35,850 nucleotides of DNA, taken from assembly GCA_028066335.1 (NCBI GenBank), contig JALCBQ010000015.1, positions 1 through 35,850 of the forward strand, written 5' to 3'. Origin of the DNA: Pirellulaceae bacterium. Lineage in GTDB: Bacteria; Planctomycetota; Planctomycetia; Pirellulales; Pirellulaceae. Both the position numbers and the translations under genes were made by a program. The notes beneath the pieces were generated by a model. That model was not told where the DNA came from, searched no databases, and worked only from the letters and a program-made list of their open reading frames with translations. Shown here in pieces: positions 31,736 to 34,002 of the stretch. The number at the start of each line of letters is the position of its first letter. Positions within the stretch are counted from its first letter, which is position 1.

Positions 31736-31797
31736 AAAAAAACTCCCGGATCTAGTTCAATCCCAGGGGGGCTGAGGATGAAATAAATTTCCGGGAG
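31736..31797 (-). terminator. Terminator stem with T7 tail on the minus strand
   Basis: On the minus strand CTCCCGGA (31797-31790) pairs with TCCGGGAG (31750-31743), directly followed by T7 (31742-31736). An inner hairpin (ATCC and CAG at 31760-31766 with CTG and GGAT at 31772-31779, plus strand numbering, one bulged A) closes the large loop. Confidence 0.6.
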
Positions 31798-31968
31798 CGA
31801 TTGGACGGCGACGCTAACATGACATCCTGTCAAAAGCGTCGACTGGCAAAGCCTCACAAGTGAGACAACAGTAGCTTTCCTAGTGACTTGTTATAACATC
31901 CTTGTTTAAACTCACACTAGTGGCCGCAGAATAGACAAATTGTCTACCCCTATGCAGGCGTGGCCACT
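31736..31968 (-). ncRNA. Candidate free-standing structured RNA, about 233 nt
   Basis: The minus strand has a promoter (TTAACA, 18 nt, TATAAT; 32004-31975), an expected start near 31968, and a T7-tailed terminator ending at 31736. Five helices follow each other in between (plus coordinates): AGTGGCC 31919-31925 with GGCCACT 31962-31968, enclosing TAGACAA/TTGTCTA; CTAGTG 31880-31885 with CACTAG 31915-31920; GCTTTCC 31874-31880 with GGCAAAGC 31845-31852 (one bulge), enclosing CTCAC/GTGAG; CGACGCT 31809-31815 with AGCGTCG 31835-31841, enclosing TGACA/TGTCA; and the terminator stem. The first helix begins at the predicted start nucleotide. No family-like protein is encoded. It is not tmRNA, RNase P, SRP or 6S RNA by the features I know. 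Adjacent helices share one or two bases, so not all close at once. Confidence 0.6.
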
Positions 31969-31974
31969 GGCCAG

Positions 31975-32004
31975 ATTATATTGTTTCCAAAGAACAACTG
32001 TTAA
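31975..32004 (-). promoter_or_regulatory. Predicted promoter of the structured RNA
   Basis: Minus strand TTAACA (32004-31999), an 18-nt spacer and a perfect TATAAT (31980-31975). The start is expected near 31968, where the first helix of the RNA begins. Confidence 0.6.
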
Positions 32005-32406
32005 GTTTGTTTGCAAAATAAAGTGTTAGATTGCTAACTCGCTTAACAAGTGAGGAAGTAGAATATTGTATTTCGAATTATCAATCAAGGGCATTTTTCA
32101 AGTTCTTCAAAAGAAGTCAAAAAAAGACCTAAAATATCTAAAAGATGGCTCAAATAGTAATAGCAGTGCTAGCACTTTTTCTTTGTTCGTAATCGTCCAA
32201 AGGGCATAATAGTCTTGTATATTAGTATAAAACATTAGCTCCTGTTGGCGGCACTGCTGCCAGTGCAAGCAAAAAATTCCCAGTTGATTCATTGTGTACA
32301 TTCCTAAAAAAGGAAAGAAAGTCATATCTTTTGAGGAAAAAACATGGTTTAATGATGAAGTTCGTTTTTTGAATTTTAAATTTTTTGTTTTAAAAAGGAG
32401 CAAGGA
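32005..32406. other. A/T-rich leader region before the C25 peptidase
   Basis: About 400 bp without a supported gene. It contains the palindrome AGTGCTAGCACT (32165-32176) followed by T5, a hairpin GCACTG/CAGTGC (32251-32256 and 32261-32266, loop CTGC) and GTTAG/CTAAC near 32025-32038. AGCAGTGC (32162-32169) can pair with GCACTGCT (32251-32258), so alternative folds are possible. The ribosome site AAGGAG (32395-32400) lies 6 nt before ATG 32407. No clear promoter was found. Confidence 0.45.
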
Positions 32407-34002
32407 ATGGAAAAAGGAACTCAACCCTTTCTAGCGTTAGGGGTTTCGTTGGGTCTTCTTTTGTCGGGGCTTTTTGTTTCTCCGATGAAGGCTCACGAAT
32501 TGGTAGGGCACAATGCTGCTAATGGCGACGTCACTGAGAACAGTGTTACCGAAAAAAGTCGTGACAACAAAGCATCGACTGAGGCGGCCGTGTTGTTGAT
32601 TACTTCTAAGGAGCTCGCCGAGAGTTGGCAACCATTTGCCCATTGGAAAACTCTCGTCGGTAAAGCGACCAAAATCGTAACGGTCGAAGAGATCGAAAAG
32701 GGGTACGAAGGCAAAGATATCCAACAAAAAATCAAAGCCTGCGTTGCCGACCACACTAAAAACCATAAGACTAAATGGGTTATTCTAGGTGGTGACAGCC
32801 AGCCAGGTGCTGCCGGACATGTCCCCGATAGGGACACACCTCACCAGTCCCTTGGCTACAAAGATATTCCGACTGATATTTATTACATTTCGGAAAAAAG
32901 CTGGGATGCCAATAACGACGGTGTTTATGGTGAATTCTCAAAAGACAAAGACGAAATTTCTTACACTGGCCCTGCGACGATCGGACGTATTCCTGTACGA
33001 ACACCACAACAGGTCAAAGATTTTACCCAAAAGGTCATCAGCTACGAATCGAAGTATCCAACGGATAAGTTCGCAACCGATTTCGTTTATGTCAGTACCT
33101 TTCCTTCGGCAGATTACAAGTCGGATATGTTATGGGAAAAATATCTTTCCCCTTCATGGCCTGAAGGAAAAATCTACCGTTTTATGACAGGATCGACCCC
33201 GTGGGACAAAGAGAAAAAAGGTGATTACGACCTTACCCCTACGAATTGGGTTGAGCGAATTAACAAAAACACAGGTGGCAAGATGCACCTTCATGGGCAT
33301 GGTTTGCTACACCTTTGGCAGGCAGAAGGTCGTGAATCGATTACTGCAAAAACGATCGACGGGCTCAATAATGAGAATGCCTACCTCGTAATGACAACTG
33401 TAAGTTGTTTTACAGGAGAGTATGATTCCAAGCGAGACCCATGTATTGTTGAGTCCCTCTTGCGAGCACCAAATGCTGGAGCCGTCGTCGTTTGTGCCCC
33501 TTCACGACCTGGCGTTCCAATTTTTCACGGTCGTGGTGACCCACGTGATGGAAAAACGCAAGATGGAACGACCCGTACCTACACCCGTTTTTGGATCAAT
33601 GGCCTTACTCAGGGGATCACTACTGGTGAAGCTTTTGCATTGGCAAAGAAAGATCTAACTGAAGATGCCTTCAAAAATGCAGGTTACCATTGGTGCCAGT
33701 GCGAGCTGAACCTTTTGGGTGACCCGACCCTCGACATGCGTCCTTCCAAGGTTACAGACCTTAGTGTGGTGGCCGATGTTAACAAACAGAATGGAAAGTA
33801 TGTTGTCACTGCAGAAGTCGAATCAGGGGGGGCAGATTTAACGATCTGTGTCTGGAATGAAGGTGGCGACTATTTCGTCGGTAGCCCAGATGCTAGCGGA
33901 AAGTTTGAGTACGTTTTGCAAAATCCTGCTGTAGGGAAAGTTCATGTAACGGTAAGTGGGCCTAGTCGTAATACCGTTTCCTCTGTTCATGAGCTAAACT
34001 AG
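32407..34002 (+). CDS. Exported C25 (gingipain-like) cysteine peptidase
   Basis: A 531-aa secreted protein. The signal peptide is about residues 1-29 (hydrophobic FLALGVSLGLLLSGLFV, then KAHE). The caspase-like catalytic core carries a His in LHGHG (H298 most likely) followed by HLW, and the nucleophile C334 in TTVSCFTGEYD. DANNDGVYGE (167-176) looks like a calcium loop, and NLLGDPTLDM near residue 430 is a hallmark of C25 peptidases. A C-terminal Ig-like beta domain (about 445-531) follows. Gingipains have a pro-domain of about 200 residues; here only some 30 residues separate the signal from the core, so activation may differ. No type IX sorting domain is seen. A strong terminator follows. 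Confidence 0.8.
   Translation: MEKGTQPFLALGVSLGLLLSGLFVSPMKAHELVGHNAANGDVTENSVTEKSRDNKASTEAAVLLITSKELAESWQPFAHWKTLVGKATKIVTVEEIEKGYEGKDIQQKIKACVADHTKNHKTKWVILGGDSQPGAAGHVPDRDTPHQSLGYKDIPTDIYYISEKSWDANNDGVYGEFSKDKDEISYTGPATIGRIPVRTPQQVKDFTQKVISYESKYPTDKFATDFVYVSTFPSADYKSDMLWEKYLSPSWPEGKIYRFMTGSTPWDKEKKGDYDLTPTNWVERINKNTGGKMHLHGHGLLHLWQAEGRESITAKTIDGLNNENAYLVMTTVSCFTGEYDSKRDPCIVESLLRAPNAGAVVVCAPSRPGVPIFHGRGDPRDGKTQDGTTRTYTRFWINGLTQGITTGEAFALAKKDLTEDAFKNAGYHWCQCELNLLGDPTLDMRPSKVTDLSVVADVNKQNGKYVVTAEVESGGADLTICVWNEGGDYFVGSPDASGKFEYVLQNPAVGKVHVTVSGPSRNTVSSVHELN

Follow-up and report, generated by a model that had tools for sequence, protein, structure and literature searches.

An uncatalogued RNA family of the Pirellulales with CsrA-type GGA hairpins and a conserved C-rich terminator loop

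The binding site recognised by CsrA/RsmE is an ANGGAN hexaloop presented in a hairpin. Selection by SELEX gave RUACARGGAUGU, and the repeats of CsrB contain CAGGA(U/A/C)G (PMC7652899); the motif has also been given as A(N)GGA (PMC10729762). A survey tied the sRNA antagonists of CsrA to the gammaproteobacterial BarA-UvrY system (PMC4682653). In that survey BarA-UvrY/sRNA control and FliW were strongly anti-correlated, with few if any species having both, and other phyla, the Planctomycetes being named among them, were proposed to use FliW. Some RNAs combine binding of CsrA with base pairing. McaS and GadY of Escherichia coli are base-pairing sRNAs with at least two GGA motifs that bind CsrA too, and CsrA promotes the pairing of SR1 with the ahrC mRNA in Bacillus subtilis (PMC7652899). 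The TwoAYGGAY motif, found in human gut metagenomes, Gammaproteobacteria and Clostridiales, is a probable RNA class that is not cis-regulatory (PMC2864571). Within the openly licensed papers searched, we found neither a planctomycete CsrA-binding sRNA nor a description of the RNA presented here. Control of CsrA by sRNA has thus far been described mainly in a different bacterial group, and the RNA family itself is uncatalogued.

The locus lies in a 35,850-nt stretch of DNA from a Pirellulaceae bacterium (contig JALCBQ010000015.1), the whole of which is termed the window below. A sequence-only reading had proposed a structured RNA, undescribed and possibly lineage-specific, with a promoter and a terminator of its own. 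This is supported: the RNA has no match in Rfam, is conserved and has covarying helices. On comparative grounds the gap holds a real, undescribed, order-wide family of regulatory RNA that is essentially single-copy.

The gene, its promoter and the fold of the RNA

The RNA is encoded on the minus strand, between trmB (PF02390; 30895–31545, plus strand) and a peptidase gene (32407–34002, plus strand). The gap had been described as otherwise empty. This was borne out, with just short open reading frames without support between the two genes, and the peptidase belongs to the C25 family (PF01364).

A near-consensus promoter had been proposed on the minus strand, and TTAACA-18-TATAAT is indeed present at 32004–31975, where it agrees with the consensus at 11 of 12 positions and is the top-scoring of 12 promoter-like sites in the 6 kb scanned. 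The homologues have the promoter consensus TTGACC-(17/18)-TATTCT-CCCGCC (n = 71 promoters). Its counterpart in the window is TTGATT-17-TATTCT at 32088–32060 (minus strand), a promoter that is kept in relatives. With a position weight matrix built from the 71 homologous promoters, the window being left out, TTGATT-17-TATTCT scores 13.9, the highest value on the minus strand, against −3.6 for TTAACA-18-TATAAT; the matrix is not fully specific, in that one unrelated plus-strand site scores 16.1. In the fold of the longer RNA the TTAACA element (the −35) forms part of an 8-bp stem (32049–32042 with 32005–31998). TTAACA-18-TATAAT is disfavoured as the main promoter by the family matrix; it is probably internal to the RNA, and a second start there is possible. 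From the sequence, the true promoter is probably TTGATT-17-TATTCT, with the RNA starting near 32053. The start and the 233-nt length first proposed (31736–31968) are probably wrong, the family promoter lying ~85 nt upstream and the RNA being ~318 nt long.

The predicted folding energy of the 233-nt stretch is −80.5 kcal/mol, compared with −63.1 kcal/mol (sd 4.4) for dinucleotide shuffles (z = −3.9; none of 200 as good), and the 319-nt form folds at −103.2 kcal/mol. A good fold is likewise obtained for the opposite strand (z = −3.1), so that the fold alone cannot decide the strand; this is decided by the promoter, the terminator and the strand of the motif.

All elements of the RNA lie on the minus strand. 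The probable full RNA (31736–32053) is delimited by the family promoter and the terminator, together with the fold of the 319-nt form. From its 5′ end it forms the stem P1 (31998–32049) in the minimum free energy fold, with TTGTTAAG paired to CTTAACAG. The hairpin P2 (31920–31967) has the family form GGUCUGCAYNGGA...CUGCGGACC and is supported by covariation in 26 RNAs. After this comes P3 (31880–31920; CTAGTG...CACTAG), which carries the CsrA-type loop AACAAGGATGTT at 31906–31895 and for which covariation, motif enrichment and the fold all argue. A small hairpin (GTCTCA/TGAGGC; 31851–31866) is present in the minimum free energy fold and lies outside the family consensus. P4 (31809–31841; CGACGCT...AGCGTCG), indicated by the fold and by motif enrichment, carries the second CsrA-type loop of the window RNA, TGACAGGATGTCA at 31832–31820, which is a variant with a 5-nt loop. 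The strand then passes through a linker, CCGTCCAATC (31799–31808), that is conserved in the alignment, into the GC-rich terminator hairpin P5 (31736–31798). This has the loop GCCCCCCTGGGA, with C6 at 31771–31766, and the T run after it extends to 31736; the hairpin is supported by the alignment, the covariance model and compensatory changes. Helices had been proposed to extend from the first transcribed nucleotide to a terminator and T run. The series of helices, the terminator and the T run stand, and the start probably does not.

Conservation and genomic setting of the family

BLASTN comparison of the stretch with 60 related genomes gave matches mostly to the last 75 nt (GTCCAATCGCTCCCGGAA...TCCTCAGCCCCCCTGGGA...CCGGGAG and the T run). 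A covariance model of the 3′ terminator hairpin (R1; 15 pairs, with 99% of cells paired) has exactly one match per genome in 55 of the 60 genomes. The order name Pirellulales is taken from the organisms among these genomes. The gene is present in Blastopirellula marina DSM 3645, Lacipirellula limnantheis, Adhaeretor mobilis and Bythopirellula polymerisocia. In a class-wide sample R1 has matches in 48 of the 49 Pirellulales genomes, by a count of the listing, and in many genomes of the group f21, which we infer to be the sister order Planctomycetales; matches in f112 and f115 are weaker, and f111, f113 and f114 are present only among the genomes listed without an R1 match. A few genomes of f21 and f112 have additional, weaker copies. 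Matches outside the class, in a sample of the phylum, are few, short (41–46 nt) and weak (E 1e-4 to 1e-3), and were judged to be chance C-rich terminators. A search of a plasmid collection gave no match to the RNA. Members of the family are ~110–430 nt long.

The helices show compensatory changes. Five cells with double changes occur in the terminator hairpin, against 0.8 after shuffling. The alignment of P2–P3 across 26 RNAs has 64 such cells in 18 of 24 pairs, where shuffles give 21.8 cells and 9.3 pairs (none of 500 as high), and sliding of the partner strands abolishes the pairing. Most of the 26 sequences were picked for the P3 loop motif, so that the stems of P2–P3, and not the loop, provide the independent test. 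Whether the linker CGUCCAAUCG pairs with a conserved strand further upstream was examined by eye; such pairing was inconsistent between species and was rejected.

The most conserved part of the RNA is the terminator hairpin with the linker that precedes it, and GCCCCCCTGGGA is invariant in 20 aligned sequences. In f21 several short forms, measuring ~110 nt from promoter to terminator, keep the C6 hairpin and the promoter and have no canonical GGA hairpins (loci L142–L144, L225, L227 and L235). Binding of CsrA is thus not a universal core of the family. The C6 hairpin may be the ancestral core, with CsrA sites gained, lost or moved.

The genes that flank the RNA mostly vary between loci, which fits a trans-acting RNA. 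A cis element tied to trmB was rejected: a search of 80 trmB loci for the 3′ hairpin produced two weak matches (E 0.02–0.06) and none that convinced. At eight loci, in Pirellulales and f21, the RNA is followed, tail-to-tail, by a glgC-type gene for ADP-glucose pyrophosphorylase (L116, at 428–1847 after the RNA start on the opposite strand, L138, L146, L147, L149, L156, L157 and L167). This common position supports orthology of the RNA across both orders and possibly reflects ancestral synteny. One cluster of GGDEF (diguanylate cyclase) proteins adjoins the RNA at L112, L117, L125, L128, L134, L160 and L165; in several Pirellulaceae loci, among those examined closely, the GGDEF gene runs in the same direction as the RNA and stops 50–120 nt before its first nucleotide. 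In E. coli, CsrA classically regulates both glycogen synthesis and c-di-GMP.

CsrA-type hairpins and the CsrA and FliW proteins

The hairpins of the family have A-N-GGA-N loops closed by C-G pairs on short and variable stems, for example GCACGGATGC, GACAAGGATGTC, CACACGGATGTG and GCATGGAAGC, and the loops agree with the recognition motif of CsrA/RsmE at every constrained position. Hairpins of this type (CA-N-GGA-N-G) occur 90 times in 72 RNAs, compared with 5.0 times in dinucleotide shuffles and twice in the reverse complements, and 82 of the 90 have the C-G closing pair. The RNAs contain 4.2 of them per kb, and the DNA on either side 0.35 per kb. GGA alone is only mildly enriched (318, compared with 264 in mononucleotide shuffles, maximum 286). 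In the strict form CANGGANG with a stem of at least 2 bp, the Pirellulales RNAs contain 87 hairpins, where shuffles give 4.4; 53 of 57 RNAs have at least one and 33 of 57 at least two. If the stem is required to be at least 3 bp, two or more sites are found in 22 of 57. The hairpins are located in the 5′ part of the Pirellulales RNAs. In f21, 11 of 15 RNAs have the strict form CANGGANG with a stem of at least 2 bp. The flanking stem sequences vary freely with pairing kept: five types of pair are found beside the closing pair, and there are 67 different 3-nt flank combinations among 102 hairpins.

CsrA (PF02599) is encoded in all 60 genomes, in 3–14 copies each, which for Pirellulales is an unusual expansion. 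The genome from which the window comes (2.9 Mb) has six csrA genes. Two of its CsrA proteins have ordinary sequences that begin with MLVLSR and have VHR close to the C terminus; the RNA-binding residues of E. coli CsrA at the corresponding places are L4 and R44 (PMC7652899). FliW was found in 36 of 40 genomes, with B. subtilis as the control for the search, and most genomes have both FliW and the RNA with CsrA-type hairpins.

It is quite probable, judged from the hairpins and the distribution of the protein, that the RNA binds CsrA. This reading is supported by the single-copy conservation, by the strand-specific enrichment of the hairpins, by CsrA being present in 60 of 60 genomes and by the identity of the motif with the published site. 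We lean, with rather less assurance, to the fuller description of a trans-acting regulatory RNA of the Pirellulales that binds CsrA.

Possible roles and relation to described RNAs

One or more CsrA dimers would grip the RNA by its exposed GGA loops, which in the window are those of P3 and P4. If the RNA were made in quantity, CsrA would be drawn off its mRNA targets in the manner of CsrB/RsmZ or McaS. Most homologues have CCCGCC immediately following the −10 box, and a GC-rich sequence at this place would be suited to control of RNA synthesis by growth rate or by the stringent response. That titration is the main role has a little under an even chance. FliW, as found in 36 of the 40 genomes, could be the sole antagonist of CsrA, and with 3–14 csrA genes per genome much RNA would be needed.

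A CsrA-assisted or CsrA-controlled base-pairing RNA is possible, if less probable. The RNA would then act mainly by pairing, with the C-rich loop GCCCCCCU as the seed, and CsrA on the 5′ hairpins would stabilise it, or control or help its pairing, as for SR1 and ahrC. In favour of this, no part of the RNA is more conserved than the C6 loop, which persists in the f21 short forms that lack canonical CsrA hairpins, and both CsrA-promoted pairing and CsrA-binding base-pairing RNAs are known (SR1, McaS and GadY; PMC7652899). However, this leaves the strong strand-specific enrichment of GGA hairpins with a mere supporting role. A scan for targets of the loop (CAGGGGGGC followed by ATG) gave more sites than the reversed control, but it is confounded by codon composition; it yielded no target and was not used. 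Titration is favoured over CsrA-assisted base pairing, the two not being separated. As in McaS, the C6 loop probably adds a second activity, either base pairing with G-rich mRNA or binding of a protein.

It is improbable that the C6 hairpin is a site for another protein, or a structural or stability element, with the GGA hairpins serving a different ligand and CsrA uninvolved. The near-invariance of loop and linker and the f21 short forms would be in keeping with this, but the loops agree with the CsrA motif at all constrained positions and CsrA is present in all the genomes.

A diverged housekeeping RNA (6S, tmRNA, RNase P or SRP) would also be single-copy and widely conserved; this is very unlikely. 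The sequence-only reading had recognised no known class, and Rfam agrees, giving nothing for the window stretch at a threshold as loose as E ≤ 10 and nothing for ten homologous loci at E ≤ 1, which for RNase P and SRP covers these loci only. The library was searched as a whole, and no family of the CsrB, CsrC, RsmY, RsmZ or TwoAYGGAY kind gave a match at these thresholds. Identity with tmRNA or 6S RNA is ruled out, both being separate genes on other contigs. The tmRNA of the same genome is on another contig (G000:C134), with none in the window (RF00023/ARAGORN), and the 6S matches (RF00013) in relatives are on other contigs than the RNA (G001:C129:24513-24705 and G009:C332:1266-1486). The 6S RNA of Pirellulales is diverged; only two of the 20 genomes have a match above the Rfam cut-off, and that of the window has no match. 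Promoter-like and terminator-like sites in the region are about as frequent as in shuffles (12 against 7.2 ± 2.6 and 7 against 7.4, respectively), but both the sequence and the structure of the RNA are kept in two orders, and its helices show compensatory changes; that the gap holds a chance fold, or no more than an ordinary terminator, is therefore negligible as an explanation.

Taken as a whole, the picture that we tentatively propose, as one that could well prove wrong in part, is of an order-wide RNA family of the Planctomycetota, present also in the sister order, that titrates CsrA alongside FliW and has a C6-hairpin core with an independent base-pairing or protein-binding function. If this is true, control of CsrA by RNA is not a gammaproteobacterial speciality. 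If CsrA is bound, such control either evolved independently or goes back further than had been assumed, and the RNA offers an entry point to post-transcriptional regulation in planctomycetes. In contrast to the survey (PMC4682653), the order-wide RNA with its CsrA-type hairpins shares genomes with FliW and with multiple copies of csrA. The C6-loop hairpin is a second element, conserved even more widely than the CsrA-type hairpins. The alignment and covariance model could seed an Rfam family.

Among described RNAs, the TwoAYGGAY motif is similar, by its name, in having GGA-containing hairpin loops; it differs in the taxa from which it is reported, and gives no Rfam match here. CsrB/CsrC and RsmX/Y/Z, the sponges of CsrA/RsmA in Gammaproteobacteria, are likewise intergenic with their own promoter and an intrinsic terminator, and likewise present GGA in hairpin loops that are closed by short variable stems and match the CsrA/RsmE site. 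The planctomycete RNA has no sequence or Rfam relation to them. It has one to three canonical sites, fewer than CsrB, and a terminator hairpin with a C6 loop, and it belongs to a different phylum whose genomes encode FliW too. With SR1, to which no sequence relation is known, the RNA shares a proposed involvement of CsrA and a host that encodes FliW as well. The RNA resembles McaS (likened by description) and GadY in combining few GGA sites with another conserved, possibly base-pairing element, which here is the C6 loop.
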